A stretch of 64,000 bases of DNA from an uncultured SAR86 cluster bacterium (GTDB lineage Bacteria; Pseudomonadota; Gammaproteobacteria; Magnimaribacterales; D2472), in the NCBI GenBank assembly GCA_902626385.1, contig CACOEZ010000004.1, positions 1 to 64,000 of the forward strand. The letters are read 5' to 3'. The first letter of the stretch is position 1, and each line of letters starts with the position of its first letter. Below, in pieces: positions 8,302 through 57,980 of this stretch. The translations under genes and the position numbers were made by a program. The notes beneath the pieces were generated by a model. The model saw only the letters and a program-made list of their open reading frames with translations. It was not told the DNA's origin and searched no databases.

Positions 8302-8847
8302 ATAACTAACAAAGTCATCTATATCTAAGTTAGGTATTTTTTTCTTTTCTCCAGACTCAGTACCAATGTATAAGTATCCTAAAATTTCTTGATGATCTTC
8401 AAGGTTTAAATTTGCTTGAACGGATTTATTAAAAGCAAGTTTTCCAGTTCTCCAAATACAGGAATATTTCATTGCGTTGAGAGCTAACATTATATTTTGA
8501 GCTGCAGTAGCTGTTGATAGTTTTTGTTCAATTGCAGGAACTTTAGGATGTTCTTTATATGAATTTACAAGTATCACAATCATCGGAGCCCTATAAGGAG
8601 CATTTTTATATTTTTCAATTATATCTGCAGAGACATTTTTATCTTCTTTTGCGAAATCTTCAAATACTTTTGAAAGCTTATCAAGACCTTTATTCTTAAC
8701 TTCAATAAAACTACTAGTTCTTAACCAAGCATGATCAGGTGCTCTCAGGGCTGCTTTATAGACTATATCCATTTCTTCTTTAGATGGATGAGGATCAGAC
8801 AGAGCTCTTGCAGAAACTCTGTTTAAAATATTTTCAAGTGCGTCCAT
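8296..8847 (-). CDS. Nitroreductase family protein, YdjA-like
   Basis: A 183-residue FMN flavoprotein resembling E. coli YdjA: it opens M-D-A-L-x-x-I-L-N-R-x-S-A-R and has the L-R-A-P-D-H segment near residues 34-39. A T-A-A-Q-N-I-M-L-A-L block at about 113-122 and G-Y-L-Y-I-G-T near 157-163 complete the small nitroreductase fold. It should reduce nitro or quinone compounds with NAD(P)H; the physiological substrate is unknown. It stands alone on the minus strand. Confidence 0.87.
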   Translation of the reverse strand: MDALENILNRVSARALSDPHPSKEEMDIVYKAALRAPDHAWLRTSSFIEVKNKGLDKLSKVFEDFAKEDKNVSADIIEKYKNAPYRAPMIVILVNSYKEHPKVPAIEQKLSTATAAQNIMLALNAMKYSCIWRTGKLAFNKSVQANLNLEDHQEILGYLYIGTESGEKKKIPNLDIDDFVSYL

Positions 8848-46707: not shown

Positions 46708-47655
46708 TTGAATAATATCTTTGTTAAAGAAAACGCTTTTATAATTACCCTGGTTGTTAGCATTGCTTTTATGATAATTTTTTATCTGCTGAGTGCTTTT
46801 CAACTAATTCAATCAACAGAATCAATAGCTTTTATTGGAGAGGCTTCGAGATGGTGTGAGCGAGTAAGTGCCGGTGCCTTTAGAGAACCTGTAAACACTC
46901 TTAGTAATTTGGGCTTTATGTTGGCGGGCTTGTTCATTCTTTATAAGCTTACTAATGAAACATCATTTAATGAATTTTCAGGCTTAAACAAAATTACAAT
47001 TTTGTATGGTGTTGCTGTTGTTTATTTAGGTCCAGGATCAATGATGATGCATGGAACAAATACAGAGTGGGGTGGCTGGGCTGATAATTTAAGTATGGTT
47101 ATGTACATAATTCTGCCATGGCTTTATAACTGCTATAAGATGTCTAACTGGTCTCAAAATACGTTATTAAAAGTTTATTTTTCAGTTGTTATTTTTTATG
47201 CGCTAATGCGAGGTCTTTTCGGGAATGGTATGGGCATTGGATTAGATCTTTTTGGAGTATCAATTGGTTTATGGGTTATTAGTGAATTTCTGTATAAATT
47301 TTGGTCACACAGTATGAGATTTTTTTCTGGATTTGTTGGTTTCTTAGTTTTAATGCTATTTGGAATTTTTCCTGCTGAGGTTTATACAAATTTAGGTGAA
47401 TATTGGTGGATAATATTCTTTTGGTTGCCTGGTATATTAGCAAATAAAAAACCACAAGGAGTTAGAACATATAGATGGTATTTTGCTGGAATGATTGCTT
47501 ATATGTCAGCCTTTGCAATATGGCTCACTGGAGTGCCAGACAGTGAAACATGTAATCCTGATACATTATTTCAAGCACATGGAATTTGGCATCTATTAAC
47601 AGCTGTTGCAACTATCTTCTTTTTTTATCATTACAGATCAGAAAAGCTAGCTTAA
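46708..47655 (+). CDS. Ceramidase-like (CREST superfamily) membrane protein
   Basis: A 315-residue protein with about eight helices. It shows the alkaline ceramidase pattern: W-C-E-R near 49-52 followed by P-V-N-T-L-S-N-L-G-F near 60-69, then M-M-H-G-T near 112-116 with W-A-D-N-L-S-M a few residues on, and a late Q-A-H-G-I-W-H-L near 288-295. The Ser, Asp and three His form the zinc hydrolase site in this superfamily. It starts with a TTG touching the upstream stop; no better start exists before the first helix. Amide-lipid hydrolysis is likely, but the substrate is unproven. Confidence 0.82.
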   Translation: MNNIFVKENAFIITLVVSIAFMIIFYLLSAFQLIQSTESIAFIGEASRWCERVSAGAFREPVNTLSNLGFMLAGLFILYKLTNETSFNEFSGLNKITILYGVAVVYLGPGSMMMHGTNTEWGGWADNLSMVMYIILPWLYNCYKMSNWSQNTLLKVYFSVVIFYALMRGLFGNGMGIGLDLFGVSIGLWVISEFLYKFWSHSMRFFSGFVGFLVLMLFGIFPAEVYTNLGEYWWIIFFWLPGILANKKPQGVRTYRWYFAGMIAYMSAFAIWLTGVPDSETCNPDTLFQAHGIWHLLTAVATIFFFYHYRSEKLA

Positions 47656-48750
47656 AATAATATTACAACCTGTATCCTTTAGAAATTCTTTAACTTTATT
47701 TTGATCTTTTTTATCAAGTTTCTTAAACTCTTCTTTTATCCATTTTAGACATTTCACTTGATAGGGAAATGTTTTTTGACTCCATGTAGATCCATTAATT
47801 ATTGTTTGCCATTTTTTTTCACCTTTATCAAATGCTGCTGAATTAGCTACTAAGCAGGGTACATAGACTTTTCCAATCTCTTCAAAGATATTTTTTAGTG
47901 TATCCGGTAAACTTTCCTGATTAACCCATCCGGAATTATTGTCTTCGAAATAATCTAATTTAGTTTCAGTATTATTATTTTCAATACCAAAAAATTCTCC
48001 AACACCTCCATTATTATGAAGGCCTGAAAGATCAGACATAATATTAACCCATGATATGGTTCTTGGAGCATTTTTATAGGCAATATTACTTGGAGTTGGA
48101 TCAAAAGATACTAGTTGCGTCAGTTGACCGTATAAACCAAAATCAGAAGAGGAGGGCCTATCTCCAAACATAAATGGTTGATTTGTAAAATGACTTTCCA
48201 TCAAAGATAAATATCTTTTATAGCTATCATCAATTAATTGTGCCGTATCTTCATTTGAACCAACCACCCAAAGCCTATTAATTTGTCTTTCAGCAATTAC
48301 ATCTCCGAATTGCTTTAGTGAATCATTATCTATATTTAATTTATGTTGAAGAACAAGCATTTTTTTTGCATTTTGTGCATCTTCATCGAAATGCCACCGA
48401 TAATGAAACATAAACTTAGTTGTCCACTCATCAGCAAAATCTTCCAATAAATAATTAAGAAAGCTTAATACAGGGGAACTAGGTATTACTGACTTTTTAT
48501 CATATAACTCTTCAAGATATCGAATTATAGGAGTTGTATCTGTTTTGCATATATTTTTATTTTCTTCATCTTTAAAAATTAAGGTTGGAAGAAGTACTGG
48601 TTTTGGAGGCTCAATACCTAAAAGTGATAAGTTATGCACTACATCGCCCCATGAAATAGAGTAGGGTATATTCCTATATCTAAGAAGAGCTAAAATCTTT
48701 TGTGTATATGGAGAACCTACATTTCCAAATACTTTTATCTTCCTATCCAT
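47647..48750 (-). CDS. Glutathione S-transferase family protein with long C-terminal extension
   Basis: A 367-residue protein. Residues 1-85 form a GST thioredoxin domain (G-S-P-Y-T-Q-K near 12-18, with P-x-L-I-F and D-T-T-P-I-I-R-Y-L later). A helical GST C-domain with D-R-P-S-S-S-D-F-G-L-Y-G-Q-L follows near 206-219. The last 110 residues are an extension not seen in ordinary 200-230 residue GSTs. It is the last gene of the leftward TetR-led array, 5 bases after another GST gene. Confidence 0.8.
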   Translation of the reverse strand: MDRKIKVFGNVGSPYTQKILALLRYRNIPYSISWGDVVHNLSLLGIEPPKPVLLPTLIFKDEENKNICKTDTTPIIRYLEELYDKKSVIPSSPVLSFLNYLLEDFADEWTTKFMFHYRWHFDEDAQNAKKMLVLQHKLNIDNDSLKQFGDVIAERQINRLWVVGSNEDTAQLIDDSYKRYLSLMESHFTNQPFMFGDRPSSSDFGLYGQLTQLVSFDPTPSNIAYKNAPRTISWVNIMSDLSGLHNNGGVGEFFGIENNNTETKLDYFEDNNSGWVNQESLPDTLKNIFEEIGKVYVPCLVANSAAFDKGEKKWQTIINGSTWSQKTFPYQVKCLKWIKEEFKKLDKKDQNKVKEFLKDTGCNIILS

Positions 48751-48755
48751 TGGAA

Positions 48756-49391
48756 CTATCCAAGTGGATCACTATTATCATTTCCTAATTGGATTGCTTT
48801 TTGAAACGCTGGCCTAGATTCAATATTTTTTACATATTTTTTTATATTCCCCATTTCATCACTTACACTTCCAAATCTGTTAGCCATATAACATGAGTGA
48901 CCTAACATACAATCAGCTGCAGAGAAGTCTCCTATTAGGTAGTCTTTATTTTCAAGAAATTGATTGACTGGATATAAGGATTTAGACAACAAGTTCATAG
49001 CTTGATTAAGAACAGTTTCATCTCTTCTTTCAGGGGGTAAAAGAACAGTTTGAACTACTATTTGATTCATAGGAGGCATAACCATACCTTCACAGTAATG
49101 AAACCACTGAAGATAGTATGGATAGTTATCAGAGTCCACACTTGGTTTTAATCCTTTATGATCATATTTATCTAATATGTACTGAATAATAGCTCCAGAT
49201 TCAAAAATTGAAACTTCACCATCTTCGATAACTGGAACTCTTCCAAGTGCGTGTCTGGCTCGATGCTCAGGTGATTTAAGGCCTTCCTTAGTAAATGGAA
49301 GAATTTCCAATTCATAATCCATCTCTAGTTCTTCCAGCAACCATGCAACACGACCTGCTCTAGTGCTTGGTGTTAGATATAATTTAACCAT
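48756..49391 (-). CDS. Glutathione S-transferase
   Basis: A 211-residue GST. The ATG at 49391 is chosen over the upstream TTG at 49415 because AAGGAG lies just before it and because it gives the normal start M-V-K-L-Y-L-T-P-S-T-R-A. The pair E-S-G-A-I-I-Q-Y near 63-70 binds the glutathione gamma-glutamyl part; D-F-S-A-A-D-C-M-L is the N-capping motif near 155-163. It conjugates or removes electrophilic groups with glutathione. Second GST of three in a row. Confidence 0.88.
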   Translation of the reverse strand: MVKLYLTPSTRAGRVAWLLEELEMDYELEILPFTKEGLKSPEHRARHALGRVPVIEDGEVSIFESGAIIQYILDKYDHKGLKPSVDSDNYPYYLQWFHYCEGMVMPPMNQIVVQTVLLPPERRDETVLNQAMNLLSKSLYPVNQFLENKDYLIGDFSAADCMLGHSCYMANRFGSVSDEMGNIKKYVKNIESRPAFQKAIQLGNDNSDPLG

Positions 49392-49401
49392 AGATATCTC
49401 C

Positions 49402-50085
49402 TTATTTTTTGACAATTTTAGAAGAATTTTTAATGAACTCTTTTTCTTTATCTTTATCTTTTAGCAAGTTTTCTACCGGAATTGGAACTTTGATACCTGC
49501 TTTCATTCCTGGTTGATCATACATAGCATTTTTCCACCTTTCTAAATTATTAAGACCGTCAGTATTAACGCCTGACCAGTTATGTGTTCTTACCCAACAC
49601 CAATTAGCAATATCTGCTATTGAATAATCCTCAGCCAGCCATTCATTTTTGGATAAATGTTTATCAAGAACCTCAAACAGCCTTCTAGTTTCATTTTGAT
49701 ATCTATCAATAGCAGGTTGTATTTTTTCAGGAAAATATCGAAAAAATACATTTGCTTGACCCATCATTGGACCAACACCACCCATTTGAAACATCAGCCA
49801 CTCAAGAGTCTTTGCTTTTTTGTTTGATTCTTTTGACATTAATAATCCTGTTTTTTCAGATAGATAAATCATAATAGCGCCAGATTCAAACATATGAAGA
49901 TTGTTATTAGACTTATCAATAATTGCAGGGATTCTTCCATTTGGACTTATCTTAAGAAATTCTGGCTTGTGTTGTTCTCCTTCTGAAAGATTAACCAAAT
50001 GAGCTTCATATTCAAGATTCATGGCCTCTAATGTACAAGATACTTTATGACCATTTGGTGTAGGGGCTGTGTACAATTCAATCAT
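49402..50085 (-). CDS. Glutathione S-transferase, YfcG/YghU (Nu class)-like
   Basis: A 227-residue GST that opens [35 protein letters not shown] at 36-55 is the hallmark of the YfcG/YghU branch, enzymes that bind two glutathiones and reduce disulfides. E-S-G-A-I near 67-71 and Y-S-I-A-D-I-A near 153-159 complete the fold. It starts 2 bases before the stop of the dehalogenase gene region and is followed by the next GST after 10 bases. Confidence 0.88.
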
Positions 50086-50087
50086 AA

Positions 50088-51149
50088 TTAATTTTTTATA
50101 AAGTCAATTAGTACTTTAGATAATTCTTTTGCTTTAGTCCATTGAAAAAAATGACCTCCACCAATGTTTTCAGCTTTGATTGCATTTGGAACCATATTCA
50201 ATACGTCTTGTTCCATGTTATTTGTAATAGGGTCATTACCAGCAAAAACAGACAAAAATGGTTTTCCAGTTTTATTAAAAAATTCTCTTGCTTTCTTTTG
50301 AGCCTTTAATGATTTATCTGGAATAATTGGTACATGACTTGGCATAGCTCTACATGCCATTTTATATTTAGGAGATGGAAATGGTGCTTCATAAGCTTTC
50401 ATTAAATCACTCATATAAGGTGATATTTTTGATAAACCTAATTGATGAAGAATATAATGATTTCTAATTTCTTTCATTGGCTTTCCTTCCATCATTGATG
50501 AGTTCAATAAGCCAACTGGAAGATTTTTGGTATCCCAACAAAACTTTTGCCAATACATGAATTTTAAAGCAGGATGAGTTTTACCAGAATCCATCATTCT
50601 AACTTCTTTTGACATACTAAGTGGAGTCAGCTTGAGTTTTGATTTTCTAAATTTTTTTACTTCATCTATAACACTTTGAGAAGTATTTGGCATATATGGC
50701 AATCCTGTGTTACCAATAGATATTTTTATAAATCTATCTTGATTATCTACAATCATTCTTAGACCAATTAATCCCCCCCAATCCTGACCAAAAAATATTA
50801 AATTATTTAAATCATTTTCAACAAGCCATTGATTCATCCAATCAACTTGATTTTGATAACTATAATCCTCTCTTGATGCTGGTTTATCAGATTTACCATA
50901 TCCAACAAGGTCAGGAGCAATAACCCTTATACCTGATTCGTTCAGAATAGGTATCATTCTAGAATATAAATAACTCCATACTGGTTGACCATGCATAGCC
51001 AATAAAGTTGGACCATCGCTTGGACCTTCATCTATATGATGAACTCTTATTTTAGTACCATCTTCGGCAACAATATTTGTATAGATAGGATCAAAAGGAT
51101 AATCCTTTATATTTTTAAAATACTTATCAGGTGTTCTTAATACCTTCAT
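50088..51149 (-). CDS. Haloalkane dehalogenase-like alpha/beta hydrolase (DhlA branch), cytoplasmic
   Basis: A 353-residue protein that opens V-L-R-T-P-D, as DhlA does. The nucleophile is Asp123 in G-Q-D-W-G-G with Trp124 as a likely halide ligand. The oxyanion region is H-G-Q-P-V-W at 53-58, followed by S-Y-L-Y-S-R-M-I-P. The acid is Asp306 in G-N-D-P and the base His333 in G-G-G-H-F. Subfamily I dehalogenases cut C-halogen bonds by hydrolysis. DhlA has E or N in the H-G-x-P position; here it is Gln. Epoxide hydrolase activity is the main alternative. No signal peptide. ATGA overlap with the DsbA-like gene. Confidence 0.85.
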
Positions 51150-51793
51150 ACAAAATCTGCAATTACTCCATCATTAATTAATTCAGTGATTAATTCTTCA
51201 AATGGATCATCTTGACCAAAATAATATTTATCTTTGTAAACATTCAATGGAACACCATGATGACCTGCATCTTTTTGATCTAATTGATTCATTTCAATTT
51301 CTTCAATTAATGTTTTTTCATTTGATTTAATAGACTCTCTTACTTCATCCAAATCTTCACCAAAATCTGCTAATAGATTTTTTAGTTTCTCATCAGTATT
51401 CCAATTTTTTGTGGTCCAAATTAAAGTTGATAATTCATATGCAAATTCTATTCCTTTACCTCTGTTGCTCATTAGTTGACCCATATGGCATACGTCGAAT
51501 ATATATGGCTGATTGTCAGATATTTTTCCAGTTAATGTGTTCTGTCTTATTGGATCTGGCTTTAAAGGCATATTTAAGGGCATATTTAATTTTTTTGCTT
51601 TCTTTTTGAAATCTCTAACAAAAGGGATAAAAAATAATATATTTTTATTATCAAACCACTCAGGCATTCTTATGGCTATTGGATATACAATTTTAAAATT
51701 AATATCTACCTTGTACTTATTTTTTAGCTTAAGCATCCTCGGGAGAATTAAGTATGAATATGGACTTCTGTATGAAAAATATAAATCAATCAT
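51146..51793 (-). CDS. DsbA-like kappa-GST / 2-hydroxychromene-2-carboxylate isomerase family
   Basis: A 215-residue thioredoxin-fold protein. Y-F-S-Y-R-S-P-Y-S-Y-L at 5-15 carries the Ser that replaces the DsbA Cys in this family. The cis-proline loop is H-G-V-P-L-N near 185-190, followed by Y-Y-F-G-Q-D-D. Such enzymes use glutathione to isomerise or conjugate aromatic intermediates. It lies within the GST/dehalogenase array with overlaps on the downstream side and 1 base of gap upstream. Confidence 0.85.
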   Translation of the reverse strand: MIDLYFSYRSPYSYLILPRMLKLKNKYKVDINFKIVYPIAIRMPEWFDNKNILFFIPFVRDFKKKAKKLNMPLNMPLKPDPIRQNTLTGKISDNQPYIFDVCHMGQLMSNRGKGIEFAYELSTLIWTTKNWNTDEKLKNLLADFGEDLDEVRESIKSNEKTLIEEIEMNQLDQKDAGHHGVPLNVYKDKYYFGQDDPFEELITELINDGVIADFV

Positions 51794-51794
51794 G

Positions 51795-52253
51795 TTATGT
51801 ATTTCCTTTTTTTAATGATAAATAAAACATTAACATAAAGTAGATAAGCATTGGTATATTGCCAATAACGCCTGGAGGTGTATTTATATAATAATCTTCA
51901 GTTAAAGGATGAAGAATGCCTGAAATCAACCTAAAACAATGATCGAAGAGGCATATCATGTATATTAGTGGCACTAGATTTTTATATTTAATAAATAAAA
52001 TTAATAAAACTAAAGTTAATGATACTTGTGTTGCTCCCCAAAGTGATGCAAACAAATAAACTAGGCTATTAGGATCTATAGAATCTATAATTGGAAGCTC
52101 TTTAATAGTTGCAATTCCAATAAGACCTGCATTTTCTGATAAAAAATGTACAAGTGATCTGAATATATACAAAGCGAAAACAGGGTAAAGGCCATAAATT
52201 GCTATTTTTGAACCTTGATATTCATTATTTAGTTTATCGGGAAATAATGCCAT
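51795..52253 (-). CDS. Four-helix membrane protein, unknown
   Basis: A 152-residue inner membrane protein with hydrophobic segments at about 17-37, 65-90, 92-110 and 128-147. A loop with D-H-C-F-R-L near 104-109 is the most distinctive part. No family was recognised. It shares one base with the MBL gene stop and is 1 base from the next gene, so it belongs to the array and may be a membrane component or an importer accessory of the pathway. Confidence 0.7.
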   Translation of the reverse strand: MALFPDKLNNEYQGSKIAIYGLYPVFALYIFRSLVHFLSENAGLIGIATIKELPIIDSIDPNSLVYLFASLWGATQVSLTLVLLILFIKYKNLVPLIYMICLFDHCFRLISGILHPLTEDYYINTPPGVIGNIPMLIYFMLMFYLSLKKGNT

Positions 52254-53302
52254 TAATTTATTTTATCAATAATAATTTCATTATTATCAACTGGCATAAT
52301 AACCCTTGTTCCATCATCAGAAAGTGTATAGTCTTTAAATACGCTCTCAATAGGCCTAAAAAATACTCTTTCCATAATATTATTTCGAGGTGTTGGTATG
52401 GAATGGTAAATAAGCAAGTGTTTTACATTTGCATCTCTGGCAATTTCACCTGCTTCCTCTATGCTGGTGTGATAATCTTGAATATCAAATAGAATTTTGT
52501 TCAATTGAGGTGTTGGGGAGACATTTCTCATTCTCTCAACAATATCTATTGATATAGCAGAATGAACTAATAAATCTATATCTTGTGAATACTTTAGAAC
52601 ACTACCGTCATGGATAGTATCACCACTAATAACAACTGTTCTTCCTTTGTAGGATATTTTAAAACCAAAAGCTGAATTTACTGGATAATGATCTACTACA
52701 AAAGGCAATATTTCTAATCCTGGAGTATCATTTGGAATTAATTCATTATCAATTATTTCAACTGCATTAAATCCCGATACACTCATTGGTAAAATTTCAT
52801 CACCGTGATGTTCATTTCTATACTGATAGTCTGCTGAATATGCTAACTCAAATCCTTTAGTAACAAGATTTATGCCTTCTGGTCCGTATACCATTAATGG
52901 TGAATTTCTACCTTGAACCCAAGACTGAAGATGTGCATCTGGTAAATCTGCCACATGATCTGAATGCATATGAGTAATTAAGACTGCTTTAACATTAATC
53001 CATGGAACCTGAAATTCTTGAAGGTTAGTTGCACTACCATTGCCCATGTCAAAAATATATATATCATCACCAGCCTCAACAAGAACACATGATTCTGCTC
53101 GTCCAGGAGATGGAAGAGGTGATCTCGAACCACAAATAACAACTTTTAAGCTATCTTCCTTATCCAAAAATTCCTCACTATTGACAATATTTTGAAGACC
53201 GATATTTAAGAGTCTATCCTGGACAGTATGTGAATTTAAGGACAATTGGCCAATTAGATAAATCGTAGCAATAGAACCTAAAAATATTAATAATTTTTTC
53301 AT
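52253..53302 (-). CDS. Metallo-beta-lactamase-fold hydrolase, exported (tRNase Z/arylsulfatase-like layout)
   Basis: A 349-residue protein with an N-terminal signal or anchor helix (residues 3-20). The intact zinc motif H-M-H-S-D-H is at 111-116. V-V-I-S-G-D-T later supplies the Asp and L-L-I-Y-H-S the last His. The long-form layout resembles AtsA-like arylsulfatases and tRNase Z relatives acting on small esters. Being periplasmic, it would act before uptake. Unlike the MBL protein at 18929 its metal site is complete. Confidence 0.85.
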   Translation of the reverse strand: MKKLLIFLGSIATIYLIGQLSLNSHTVQDRLLNIGLQNIVNSEEFLDKEDSLKVVICGSRSPLPSPGRAESCVLVEAGDDIYIFDMGNGSATNLQEFQVPWINVKAVLITHMHSDHVADLPDAHLQSWVQGRNSPLMVYGPEGINLVTKGFELAYSADYQYRNEHHGDEILPMSVSGFNAVEIIDNELIPNDTPGLEILPFVVDHYPVNSAFGFKISYKGRTVVISGDTIHDGSVLKYSQDIDLLVHSAISIDIVERMRNVSPTPQLNKILFDIQDYHTSIEEAGEIARDANVKHLLIYHSIPTPRNNIMERVFFRPIESVFKDYTLSDDGTRVIMPVDNNEIIIDKIN

Positions 53303-53312
53303 AATAATTTGA

Positions 53313-53714
53313 TCAAATAGTTTCTATATTTAACTGACCTTCTAATCCAGCATCCCTATGAACATGTATTTTTTGATATTCCGGATCCATAGTCATATCT
53401 AACATTGCTTTCCTATTTGGATACTTAGCAATTGCAACAGCATCCCATAAATCCTCAACTTCACCCAGCATTAATCTACTAACTTTACCTCCAAAAACAA
53501 ATTCTCCACCATATTTTTCAATAAAATTTATAACTTCTATAGCATAAAGTTGATATGCTTCTTCACCGGTCAAATCAGTATCACGTTTATCCTCATAGCA
53601 AGCTTTTTCTTTAAATTTAAGTAAATTTACCATTGATATTGGTCCAATTTCAGAATTTTCTAAGAAACCATTTATCTGTTCTTCGTTAGGCATAATTTTA
53701 TTTTCAACTTTCAT
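53313..53714 (-). CDS. DUF1330 family protein
   Basis: A 133-residue ferredoxin-like dimeric alpha-beta barrel protein. M-V-N-L-L-K-F-K near 28-35 and the A-I-A-K-Y-P-N-R-K-A-M-L-D-M near 92-106 match the DUF1330 pattern (I-x-x-Y-P-x-R-x-A-F-x-x-M). The family is structurally close to small monooxygenases and isomerases, but its activity is unknown. It is the second gene of the array, 2 bases after tetR. Confidence 0.78.
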   Translation of the reverse strand: MKVENKIMPNEEQINGFLENSEIGPISMVNLLKFKEKACYEDKRDTDLTGEEAYQLYAIEVINFIEKYGGEFVFGGKVSRLMLGEVEDLWDAVAIAKYPNRKAMLDMTMDPEYQKIHVHRDAGLEGQLNIETI

Positions 53715-53716
53715 AT

Positions 53717-54292
53717 TTATTCACCATTAGAAATAATTAATTTTTTACAGTGTTCGTAAAGAGATTCAGCAATATTAGATTTACTTAGTCCTTGGAATTT
53801 TAATCGTTGATAAAATCCAAAAGATAAAGATGCATCTAAAAGCTCCTGATTTGCAGACTTAAGATTTAATATTTCAGGAATGATTCGCTCAGTTCTTTTT
53901 CTTAAAAGTTTCTGATATTCGGGATATCTTTTTTGAAGAATTTTATATTTTGGTAATTGAGTTATTGTTGCAATCATAATATTTTCATATTTATTATAAT
54001 AATAAAGCCTTTCTTCAATAATTAGACCTAACCTCTCAGTTAATGGAGAATCTAATCTTATTTCTTTTTCATCATTCAGAAGCTTATGGTTAATAGATTC
54101 ATCGACTTTCATTAACAAAGTCTCCATATCATCAAAGTGTCTAAATACTGTTCTTATAGCTATCCCAGATTCTTTTGCTACCTCTTCCGCAGTAGGATAT
54201 AAATTACCTTTATTTATGAGATTAATAATGGATTCTAAAATAATATTTTGACTTTTTTTGCTTCTAAGTATTCTTCCATCGACTTGAGCCAT
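53717..54292 (-). CDS. TetR family transcriptional regulator
   Basis: A 191-residue repressor-type protein. The HTH lies at about 33-60: Y-P-T-A-E-E-V-A-K-E-S-G-I-A-I-R-T-V-F-R-H-F. The variable C-terminal domain would bind the inducer. It is the first of nine genes running leftward and is divergent from a dehalogenase gene across 52 bases that hold a near-palindrome. Promoter geometry suggests its mRNA starts at or next to the ATG. It likely represses its own array and the divergent operon. Confidence 0.92.
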   Translation of the reverse strand: MAQVDGRILRSKKSQNIILESIINLINKGNLYPTAEEVAKESGIAIRTVFRHFDDMETLLMKVDESINHKLLNDEKEIRLDSPLTERLGLIIEERLYYYNKYENIMIATITQLPKYKILQKRYPEYQKLLRKRTERIIPEILNLKSANQELLDASLSFGFYQRLKFQGLSKSNIAESLYEHCKKLIISNGE

Positions 54293-54298
54293 TTCAAA

Positions 54299-54327
54299 AT
54301 TATAACTATTGACATACTTTATGACAA
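54299..54327 (-). promoter_or_regulatory. Leftward promoter of the tetR array
   Basis: On the minus strand TTGTCA (54327-54322) and a perfect TATAAT (54304-54299) are 17 bases apart. The predicted RNA start falls at or within a base or two of the tetR ATG (54292), so the message would be leaderless. The -35 lies inside the right half of the palindrome. Confidence 0.75.
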
Positions 54328-54329
54328 TA
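54307..54329 (+). promoter_or_regulatory. Putative TetR operator (23-bp near-palindrome)
   Basis: Left arm TATTGACATA (54307-54316), centre CTT, right arm TATGACAATA (54320-54329). Nine of ten arm positions pair; the exception is the A in each TGACA-type half. It is the only strong inverted repeat between the two divergent genes and covers both predicted -35 boxes, the standard layout for a self-regulating TetR repressor. Confidence 0.72.
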
Positions 54330-54335
54330 TATTAT
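54309..54335 (+). promoter_or_regulatory. Rightward promoter of the secreted dehalogenase operon
   Basis: A consensus TTGACA (54309-54314) is followed after 15 bases by TATTAT (54330-54335). The spacer is shorter than ideal; TTATTG at 54332 would give 17 but matches poorly. RNA would start near 54342, three bases before the preferred ATG at 54345, again giving an almost leaderless message. Confidence 0.6.
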
Positions 54336-54344
54336 TGTTTCAGA

Positions 54345-55427
54345 ATGATAAAATTTTTGATATTAGCTCAATTAGTATTCTCAATAGCAACAAACGCCAT
54401 TGAAGAAAATCAAAGTTCTAATGTATTACGGACACCCGATTCAAGATTTATTAATTTAGAGGATTATCCATTTAAGCCCAATTACATTTATATAGACAAT
54501 ATTAGAATTCATTACATTGATGAAGGCCCAAAGAATGCTGATCCAATTTTATTACTTCATGGACTTCCAACATGGAGTTATTTATATAGAAAAATGATTC
54601 CAATCTTTGTTGATGCAGGGCATCGCGTCATAGTTCCTGACATGGTCGGATTTGGTAAATCTGATAAGTTCATTAAAAAAAATGATTACAGTTTTTTAAT
54701 GCATGTTAATTTTATGAAAAAATTAGTAATTGATCTTGATTTGAATAATATAGTTTTAATGGGTCAGGACTGGGGAGGTCCTGTTGGAATGAGAATGGCA
54801 GCCGAGATACCTGATAGATTTTCTGCGATTGTTATGTCTAACGGAGGTTTGCCCAGTATGCCAAATCCACAGGCTTGGCTTGCTAGAAATATCATGAATT
54901 TTAATGTTTGGTTAAATAAACCAATATCAATGAGTGAATTAATAAATGAGCTTAATAATGTATCAACAACAGCAGAACCATCAGCAACTGATTTCATAGG
55001 AGCATTTTCGAAATGGATTGCACATAGTTATTATACTGAAGATCTTGATATTGTTGCTGTTATGGAGAACTTGGGAAGAATAAAAGATTTATCTAAATCA
55101 ACAAAGCTTGCATATGAGGCACCTTATCCATCTTCAAAATATAAAGCTGGTGCAAATACATTTGCATCATTTGCAGTTGATGAACTAGCAAATAATGAAA
55201 AATATATGGTAGACGTATATGAAAAATGGGAAAAACCTTTTTTAATAGCTTTTGGAGCAAATGAAAGAATTACTTATCGATTTAAGGGTGAACTAGCAAG
55301 AAGAATTCCTAATCCCACAATAATTGATGATATAAAAGACGCTGGACATTTTATTCAAGAAGATGCAGGAGAGGAATTAGCGATTTTAATAAATAATTTT
55401 ATTTCTGAAGAAGTTCAAAACAAATAA
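54345..55427 (+). CDS. Haloalkane dehalogenase-like hydrolase (DhlA branch), exported
   Basis: A 360-residue protein from the ATG at 54345; upstream in-frame codons at 54309 (TTG) and 54321 (ATG) lie in the operator and would spoil the signal peptide M-I-K-F-L-I-L-A-Q-L. The mature part opens V-L-R-T-P-D-S-R-F, very close to DhlA. Nucleophile Asp142 in G-Q-D-W-G-G, oxyanion region H-G-L-P-T-W at 72-77, base His335 in D-A-G-H-F. The usual acid position reads G-A-N-E-R, giving Glu307 in place of Asp. It should hydrolyse haloalkanes or related electrophiles in the periplasm. Paralogue of the gene at 50088. Confidence 0.85.
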   Translation: MIKFLILAQLVFSIATNAIEENQSSNVLRTPDSRFINLEDYPFKPNYIYIDNIRIHYIDEGPKNADPILLLHGLPTWSYLYRKMIPIFVDAGHRVIVPDMVGFGKSDKFIKKNDYSFLMHVNFMKKLVIDLDLNNIVLMGQDWGGPVGMRMAAEIPDRFSAIVMSNGGLPSMPNPQAWLARNIMNFNVWLNKPISMSELINELNNVSTTAEPSATDFIGAFSKWIAHSYYTEDLDIVAVMENLGRIKDLSKSTKLAYEAPYPSSKYKAGANTFASFAVDELANNEKYMVDVYEKWEKPFLIAFGANERITYRFKGELARRIPNPTIIDDIKDAGHFIQEDAGEELAILINNFISEEVQNK

Positions 55428-55451
55428 TCTAATTGAAGCTACAATATTTAA

Positions 55452-56375
55452 ATGAATAGAGTTATTCAACATACTGGTTCTAAATATCCAATAATTCAAG
55501 CTCCCATGGGATGGATTGCAAGAAGTAGGCTAGCATCTGCTGTTTGCGAAGCAGGAGGTATGGGAATTATAGAGACCTCTTCAGGCGAGATAGATAATTG
55601 TAAAAAAGAAATTAAATTAATGTCTGAAATCACTGATAAACCTTTTGGAGTAAATCTTCCTTTATTATTTTTAAGAGATGACTCAATGGTAAATTTTTGT
55701 GTTGAAGCTGGTGTTAAATTTGTAACAACTTCAGCTGGAGATCCTACAAAATATGTTGGAGTTTTAAAAGATGCAGGAATAACAGTTTATCATGCAGTTC
55801 CCAGTCTTGAAGGTGCTTTAAAAGCAGCCAATGCAGGAGTTGATGGTTTGGTAGTTGAAGGAACAGAAGGGGGTGGCTTTAAAAGCCCTGTAGAAGTAGG
55901 GCTTTTAGTATTAATCCAATCAATAAAACAAAATATAGATCTTCCAATAATTGCTGCAGGGGGGATTGTAGATGGTGCTGGTATGGCAGCTGTATTTGCA
56001 GCTGGAGCTGAGGGAATTCAAATGGGAACAAGATTTGTATCTAGCTTGGAAAGCCCTGTTCATGACAATTTTAAAAATAAAATTATTGATTCCGGCATTG
56101 ATGACACTTTCATTTTAAATAAAAAGTCTAAACCGGTGATAAGAGCTCTAAAAACTAACTTAACAAAAGACATAGATGAGATTGGTAAAATGGACATGAC
56201 TGCTTTAATGAATATACAAGATCTATATTTTGGAGGCGATATGGAGGCAGCTCCAGCTCTATCAGGTCAATCTACAGGGCTTATAAAAGAAATCAAACCT
56301 GTAAAACAAATTATTGATGAGACTATAAATGAGTTTAATGAAACTTGTAAAAAACTTGGAAATTTAAAATTTTAA
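55452..56375 (+). CDS. Nitronate monooxygenase / enoyl-ACP reductase II-like FMN enzyme
   Basis: A 307-residue TIM barrel. It opens with Y-P-I-I-Q-A-P-M-G-W near 13-22, the FMN site of the NMO/FabK family. V-V-E-G-T-E-G-G-G-F near 144-153 and A-A-G-G-I-V-D-G near 178-185 follow, then G-T-R-F-V near 204-208. Members oxidise nitronates, or reduce enoyl-ACP. It is the second gene of the rightward operon, 24 bases after the dehalogenase. Confidence 0.85.
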   Translation: MNRVIQHTGSKYPIIQAPMGWIARSRLASAVCEAGGMGIIETSSGEIDNCKKEIKLMSEITDKPFGVNLPLLFLRDDSMVNFCVEAGVKFVTTSAGDPTKYVGVLKDAGITVYHAVPSLEGALKAANAGVDGLVVEGTEGGGFKSPVEVGLLVLIQSIKQNIDLPIIAAGGIVDGAGMAAVFAAGAEGIQMGTRFVSSLESPVHDNFKNKIIDSGIDDTFILNKKSKPVIRALKTNLTKDIDEIGKMDMTALMNIQDLYFGGDMEAAPALSGQSTGLIKEIKPVKQIIDETINEFNETCKKLGNLKF

Positions 56376-56377
56376 TT

Positions 56378-57268
56378 ATGCCAGTAAGCTCAGACACAGA
56401 TTTAAGAAATCAAGATATTAAAATATATATTAATGGCAAATTTTATGATAGAAGCGAAGCTAAAATTTCTGTTTTTGATAGTGGATTTCTACTTGGCGAT
56501 GGCATTTGGGAGGGTATAAGGCTTGTTAATAACAAATGGTTATTTCTTGATGAACATTTAGATAGACTTTATGAAGGCTGTAAAGCGATAGATCTAAATC
56601 TTGATATAACACCCGAAGATATCAAGATTGCTATTAATGAAACTCAGAAAATAAACAAAATGCACGATGCTGCTCATGCAAGATTAATGATAACAAGAGG
56701 AGATAAGATAAAGCCATTTCAACAACCATCATTATCAAATAAAGGAATTAACTTTGTGATAATCATGGAACATTCTGAGGAAAGCCCTAATTCTGAGGGT
56801 ATTGCTTTAGTTACCGTCCCTCAAGTTCGAGGAATGCCGACGTCTCAAGATCCTAAATTAAATAGCCATTCAAAATTAAATTGTGTGATAGCTTGTATTC
56901 AGGCAAATAAAGCTGGAGGAGATGAAGCTTTAATGTTGGATCCATATGGTTTTGTTAATACTACTAATTCATGTAACTTTTTTATTGTAAAAAATAAACA
57001 GGTTTGGACGAGCTCTGGAGATTACTGCATGAACGGCATAACACGATCTAAAATTATCCTCTTATGTAAACAAAATAAAATTGAAGTCCATGAAAAAAAT
57101 TTTTCACTTGTAGATGTGTATTCCGCACAAGAAGCATTTATTACAGGTACTCTTGGTTCTCTTACCCAAGTAGTTTCTATTGATGATAGATACATAGGAA
57201 ATAAAGAAGAAGGTTGGCCAGTTACTGAAAAATTAAGAAATTTATATATAGAACTCATTCATGCCTAA
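56378..57268 (+). CDS. Class IV aminotransferase (branched-chain/D-amino acid type)
   Basis: A 296-residue fold-type IV PLP enzyme. I-S-V-F-D-S-G-F-L-L-G-D-G-I-W-E-G near 30-46 is the family start, Lys166 in S-H-S-K-L-N is the PLP lysine, and T-T-N-S-C-N-F-F near 194-201 contacts the phosphate. Either branched-chain transamination or a D-amino acid/aminodeoxychorismate-type reaction is possible. It is 2 bases after the NMO gene and overlaps the P-loop gene by 8 bases. Confidence 0.85.
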   Translation: MPVSSDTDLRNQDIKIYINGKFYDRSEAKISVFDSGFLLGDGIWEGIRLVNNKWLFLDEHLDRLYEGCKAIDLNLDITPEDIKIAINETQKINKMHDAAHARLMITRGDKIKPFQQPSLSNKGINFVIIMEHSEESPNSEGIALVTVPQVRGMPTSQDPKLNSHSKLNCVIACIQANKAGGDEALMLDPYGFVNTTNSCNFFIVKNKQVWTSSGDYCMNGITRSKIILLCKQNKIEVHEKNFSLVDVYSAQEAFITGTLGSLTQVVSIDDRYIGNKEEGWPVTEKLRNLYIELIHA

Positions 57269-57980
57269 TAATCTTATTATTGGTATGTGGTCAGGTCCAC
57301 GCAATCTATCGACAGCTCTTATGAGAAGTTTTGGTAATAGAAAAGATGTTACTGATGTGCTTGATGAACCTTTTTATGCATCATATTTGGTAAAGTCAAA
57401 TAAAGACCATCCTATGAAGGATGAAGTTATTAAAAGTCAATCGCATAATATTGATGAGGTCAAAGATCTATGTCAGCAAGTTAACAAAGGTATTACTTAT
57501 CAAAAACATATGACACAGCATATTTTAGATAAAGATTATAGATGGATGAAAAAAATAAAAAATTGTTTTTTAATTAGAGATCCTAACTTAGTTGTCAAAA
57601 GTTTTATGAAGTCATGGAATGATGGTGATTATGAAGATATAGGCTTTGAACAACAATACGATATATTTAAATTTGTCGTTAATAATATTGACGAAAAACC
57701 ACCGATCATCGATGCATCAAAGTTAAGAAATGATCCAAAAAATACATTAGTTAAATTTTGTATGAAAGTTAATATTAAATGGGATGAAAAGATGTTGAAT
57801 TGGGAACCTGGATTAAAAAGTTATGATGGAATATGGGCTTCTCACTGGTATCCATCAGTTATGAAATCTGACTCTTTTAAACCCGAAGATGAGATAGATC
57901 TTTCTTTAAATGATAACGAAAAAAGAATTGTAGAAAAGGCAATGCCAATATATGAAGAACTTTATAAAAACTCTATTTAA
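57261..57980 (+). CDS. P-loop sulfotransferase-like protein paired with the class IV aminotransferase
   Basis: A 239-residue protein with a sulfotransferase-type loop near the N-terminus: M-W-S-G-P-R-N-L-S-T-A-L-M at 9-21. An I-R-D-P-N-L-V-V-K-S-F segment near 108-118 matches the 3'-phosphate site, and the C-terminus has G-I-W-A-S-H-W-Y near 192-199. It is related to the P-loop part that plants carry fused to a branched-chain-aminotransferase-like domain (recalled, not checked). The overlap with the aminotransferase gene supports a joint function. The acceptor is unknown. Confidence 0.75.
   Translation: MPNNLIIGMWSGPRNLSTALMRSFGNRKDVTDVLDEPFYASYLVKSNKDHPMKDEVIKSQSHNIDEVKDLCQQVNKGITYQKHMTQHILDKDYRWMKKIKNCFLIRDPNLVVKSFMKSWNDGDYEDIGFEQQYDIFKFVVNNIDEKPPIIDASKLRNDPKNTLVKFCMKVNIKWDEKMLNWEPGLKSYDGIWASHWYPSVMKSDSFKPEDEIDLSLNDNEKRIVEKAMPIYEELYKNSI

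Follow-up and report, generated by a model that had tools for sequence, protein, structure and literature searches.

Results

Gene content and promoter elements of the locus

The window, i.e. the whole 64,000-nt stretch of DNA that was analysed (31.6% GC), belongs to a SAR86-type genome (G000) of 1.09 Mb that is 72% complete. Within it a leftward tetR gene and a rightward gene for a haloalkane-dehalogenase-like enzyme flank a gap of 52 bp (54293-54344; Table 1). The N-terminus of the tetR product scores above the cut-off of the TetR_N helix-turn-helix profile, and a profile built from 11 relatives identifies TetR-family solved structures (best E 7.9e-9). The genes that are co-directional with tetR encode a DUF1330 protein, a protein of the metallo-beta-lactamase fold, a membrane protein, a DsbA-like protein, a second haloalkane-dehalogenase-like protein and three glutathione-S-transferase-like ORFs, the last named by eye from their translations.

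Table 1. Coordinates of the genes, promoter elements and proposed operator in the window
Feature	Position	Strand	Remarks
Genes co-directional with tetR	47647..53714	-	gene order mostly the same in G013, G025, G012, G005
TetR-family regulator, predicted leaderless	53717..54292	-	PF00440 24.2 bits, cut-off 24
Leftward -10 TATAAT, 17-bp spacer, 11/12	54299..54304	-	invariant in 5 species
Palindrome, proposed TetR operator	54307..54329	.	core TTGACAT-N5-ATGACAA at 54309-54327
Rightward -35 TTGACA, left half-site	54309..54314	+	invariant in 5 species
Leftward -35 TTGTCA, right half-site	54322..54327	-	conserved in 5 species
Rightward -10 TATTGT, 18-bp spacer, 10/12	54333..54338	+	best -10 on this side
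Haloalkane-dehalogenase-like alpha/beta hydrolase, predicted leaderless	54345..55427	+	Pfam PF00561; NCBIfam NF002043 above cut-off
TACAAT at -12 of NMO gene, separate predicted leaderless promoter	55440..55445	+	13/17 orthologs
NMO (nitronate-monooxygenase), class-IV aminotransferase and sulfotransferase genes, own promoter	55452..57980	+	

An earlier note on this DNA had described a 23-bp inverted repeat with one mismatch and a CTT centre in the gap, overlapping a -35 box in either direction, and a perfect leftward TATAAT at 17-base spacing; direct reading bears out each of these points. The repeat consists of TATTGACATA (54307-54316), CTT (54317-54319) and TATGACAATA (54320-54329), with 9 of the 10 arm positions pairing, such that an operator-like palindrome overlaps promoter elements on both strands. 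The two best promoter-like matches within 2 kb are the rightward and leftward promoters of the gap, the rightward -10 being weak and poorly conserved among the five species compared (see below), with an alternative, TATTAT, at 54330-54335 (15-bp spacer). The leftward TATAAT lies 6 nt from the tetR ATG (54292), and TTGACA begins 36 nt ahead of the right-hand ATG (54345), a distance that is the same in G005. Given these distances, canonical starts would coincide with each ATG or be only 1-3 nt away; the tetR and dehalogenase-like messages thus probably both begin at or near their start codons.

Conservation of the palindrome across species

The palindrome alone is weak evidence for an operator, because the window is AT-rich and shuffled sequences give similar counts. 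Palindromes of equal quality (arms of 10 bp with no more than one mismatch, separated by 0-8 bp) number 69 in the window, compared with 54 expected from dinucleotide shuffles, and one is found in 4.4% of the shuffled versions of the 52-bp gap; rarity was therefore rejected as an argument. Conservation across species, rather than the palindrome itself, is what puts the operator-like site beyond chance. The tetR gene is present in 5 of the 34 genomes of the genus and is preceded by the palindrome in all five, an outcome that answers the earlier note's suggestion of looking upstream of homologous tetR genes; in other SAR86 families the site has diverged. Columns that do not vary among the five species number 18 of 23 in the palindrome and six of six in the leftward -10, as against only 4 of 24 in the sequence just downstream. 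The spacing from the tetR -10 to the ATG is 5-6 nt in every one of the five, while the bases in between vary, i.e. the box is held at a fixed, short distance from the start codon, as expected of a leaderless gene. The right half-site reads TGACAA in all five, where symmetry would require TGTCAA. Overall, 12 of the 34 genus genomes contain the palindrome pattern, compared with 2 for a reversed control.

In more distant tetR relatives (30-38% identity; SAR86 families f2 and f3) the tetR promoter contains a TG-n-CA palindrome, and the helix-turn-helix residues RT-[VI]-FR do not vary among the proteins. The palindrome is perfect at locus L007, near-perfect at L009 and diverged at L006, L008, L010 and L011. 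None of 2000 shuffles reached the observed score for L007, L009 or a Hyphomonadaceae locus (L040), five did so for L008, and 46-49 for L006, L010 and L011. At L010 and L011 (family f3) two neighbouring TG-n-CA palindromes are found upstream of tetR, possibly two operator sites. The exact operator was also sought before distant homologs outside SAR86 (Halieaceae, Parvibaculum, Comamonadaceae and others), almost all of which score near background, with a near-perfect copy at the one Hyphomonadaceae locus only; the motif thus seems largely SAR86-specific.

Genes to the right of the palindrome

Two of the five species, G000 and G005, have an intact dehalogenase-like gene to the right of tetR; G012 has a short remnant of it, and G025 and G013 lack it, with tetR and the palindrome still in place in all five. 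The remnant or loss can be seen between tetR and NMO around 8330-8500 of locus L104 (G012) and around 12532-12656 of L103 (G025), stretches in which palindrome and promoter are still present. For the NMO gene further to the right, 17 orthologs from across the genus could be read (L244-L268), and 13 of them have TACAAT at exactly -12, the 6 nt before the ATG varying freely; in G005 the NMO gene overlaps the one upstream and has AAAGGAG before it instead. Since the NMO, aminotransferase and sulfotransferase genes have their own promoter, the putative operator would directly govern only the dehalogenase-like gene on this side. The earlier proposal of one TetR site controlling two operons thus stands as regards an operator over both -35 boxes, which conservation supports, and has to be narrowed as regards the rightward direct target, which is predicted to be the dehalogenase-like gene only. 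As judged from these comparisons, the more constant role of the site would be autoregulation of the tetR operon.

A second site before an RND efflux adaptor gene

When no mismatch is allowed, the pattern has two matches in G000, one in the tetR gap and the other, TTGACATCATCTATGTCAA (G000:C2:63325), a perfect palindrome that immediately precedes a gene for an RND periplasmic adaptor (above cut-off for TIGR01730). At this second site (1501-1519 of L091, G000:C2:63325-63343) the -35 and the adaptor start codon are likewise 36 nt apart. The region upstream of the adaptor gene could be read in 26 genomes of the genus; the site is present in 4 of 4 that have tetR and 3 of 22 that do not, counts that include one site with a 1-bp indel in the former group and one indel site in the latter; the association (Fisher P 0.002, rising to 0.014 when the indel sites are left out) is weakened by the shared ancestry of the genomes. 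In G012 the tetR site and the adaptor site share an unusual centre, CAGTATTTATG. The site in the tetR gap is therefore probably not the sole target of the regulator, the RND efflux operon being a likely second one. A wider regulon was sought with a looser pattern (2 mismatches), which gave 121 matches compared with 78 in the control and was set aside as too noisy; only zero-mismatch sites are used here.

Three genomes (G001, G018 and G032) have the site before the RND adaptor, yet no detectable tetR. Similar palindromes are also found between TonB-receptor-like and DUF3604-like genes (the latter name assigned by eye) at L195, L198 and L200, in genomes without such a tetR (G015, G006 and G024, respectively). 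Sites in genomes that lack tetR imply that other regulators may read a similar motif.

Predicted leaderless starts across SAR86

ORFs were called in about 455 kb of G000 (the window plus 391 kb) and in 400 kb each of G015, G034 and G039. Of 727 first genes, 55 have a TATAAT-like box exactly at -12 from the ATG, compared with a mean of 11.9 at other positions (P 1e-19), the peak being single, sharp and significant in each of the four genomes separately. The signal persists after removal of redundant orthologs (35/488 vs 7.7, P 6e-13); operon-internal genes lack it (11/674 vs a mean of 7.2). A Shine-Dalgarno (SD) motif precedes 1 of the 55 genes in the -12 class, as opposed to 126 of 672 other first genes, with an SD-like motif in about 17% of SAR86 first genes overall. 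A strong -35 was looked for in the genome-wide -12 class and a match was not enriched there. An E. coli sample (50 kb, 29 first genes) was too small to serve as a control. Leaderless starts hence appear to be a general SAR86 promoter class, of which the NMO promoter in the window is an example. The earlier prediction of such starts on both sides of the gap is supported by conservation and by the genome-wide -12 signal; such starts are not peculiar to this locus.

Discussion

Proposed mechanism and alternatives

The arrangement of the gap probably represents a TetR divergon that is autoregulated and has leaderless messages, with the palindrome serving as operator for the TetR encoded next to it. 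TTGACA is the sigma-70 -35 hexamer, and the consensus half-site, TTGACAT(A), contains it; a perfect palindrome of such half-sites thus provides a consensus -35 box for either direction. The palindrome would supply the -35 box of both divergent promoters, so that a bound TetR dimer would keep RNA polymerase off both. When ligand is absent, TetR is predicted to repress its own operon (tetR and the DUF1330, metallo-beta-lactamase-fold, DsbA-like, dehalogenase-like and glutathione-S-transferase-like genes) and also the divergent dehalogenase-like gene; a ligand, probably toxic or xenobiotic, would release it and open both promoters. The 5' end of either transcript would coincide with the AUG or lie no more than about 3 nt from it, translation would proceed by leaderless initiation, and the second copy of the palindrome probably lets the same repressor control the RND efflux operon in trans. 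It may be that the asymmetric right half, TGACAA (TTGTCA as read for the tetR -35), tunes the repressor's own promoter.

That the palindrome belongs instead to a different regulator, e.g. another SAR86-wide protein of the TetR type, the adjacent TetR binding elsewhere, is unlikely. The palindromes before RND adaptor and DUF3604-like genes in genomes without a detectable tetR ortholog would fit such a regulator, but the palindrome lies in the tetR promoter wherever the gene occurs in the genus and follows tetR relatives into other families, and three other TetR-family genes of G000 have no such site in the upstream stretch taken. Rather less probable still is that the conserved block is a pair of back-to-back promoters with interlocking -35 boxes and no operator function. 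A -35 box set beside its own reverse complement makes a palindrome automatically, most of the invariant columns are those of the -35 hexamers, and chance could account for the palindrome taken by itself. Conservation, however, extends beyond the hexamers (TA before TTGACA and TA after TGACAA), at L006 and L008 the palindrome is present even though the gene on the right has an SD motif and no matching promoter, and perfect copies stand before the one-sided promoter of the RND adaptor gene.

It is also improbable, to a similar degree as a different regulator, that the transcripts have short leaders or start further upstream, with translation not being leaderless. The minority of SAR86 first genes with an SD-like motif is in line with initiation on leaders in this lineage, but the tetR -10 is kept at its distance from the ATG in five species despite variable intervening nucleotides, and the genome-wide -12 peak is sharp and found in genes lacking an SD motif.

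Relation to known systems

The tet system has divergent promoters with overlapping operators, two operators being present, and serves in tetracycline efflux; the tet operator of Tn1721 differs from the SAR86 site. The Tn1721 TetR, going by its citation in the report on AcuR (PMC3017554), is a TetR-type repressor with a leaderless mRNA, a feature predicted for the SAR86 tetR message as well. By analogy, the closest described case is AcuR of the Rhodobacter sphaeroides acuR-acuI-dddL operon, also encoded by a TetR-family repressor gene that is first in its operon; the operator inverted repeat of AcuR overlaps its own promoter, the transcript maps exactly to the AUG without an SD motif, and the ligand is acrylate (PMC3017554). 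By contrast, the AcuR operator, TAATAGAC-n6-GTCTATTA, differs in sequence from the SAR86 core, and one repressed operon is described for AcuR (PMC3017554) whereas two divergent promoters share the predicted site in SAR86. An AcuR ortholog was considered and rejected on account of the operator sequence and of the neighbouring genes, which differ and do not include an adjacent acuI. In terms of this comparison, the SAR86 locus is one that would work like AcuR and the Tn1721 TetR, with a different operator and gene set.

The SAR86 -12 box is the same signal as that used by Zheng et al. 2011 (PMC3160421), who defined leaderless (TA-led) genes by the presence of TANNNT some 10 bp ahead of the start codon. 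In that work leaderless genes were reported in 15 of 239 gamma-proteobacterial genomes, mostly Xanthomonadales and Legionellales. Among the papers searched, none mentions SAR86 together with leaderless, and the SAR86-wide signal is the part of the present results that looks undescribed.

Implications

On balance, and by a modest margin over the contrary, we favour the view that a leaderless promoter class of SAR86, combined with a TetR half-site that doubles as a -35 box, yields a minimal switch of 52 bp serving two leaderless genes, and an efflux pump in trans. As a local switch this would be an already-known kind of device, and the comparison behind it is the more useful part. The leaderless signal bears on gene-start annotation and promoter prediction in streamlined marine genomes and, SAR86 being an abundant marine gamma-proteobacterial lineage, on the reach of leaderless initiation in the gamma-Proteobacteria. 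The operator motif, in turn, offers a testable regulon, in which an RND efflux pump would be tied to a detoxification-like operon.
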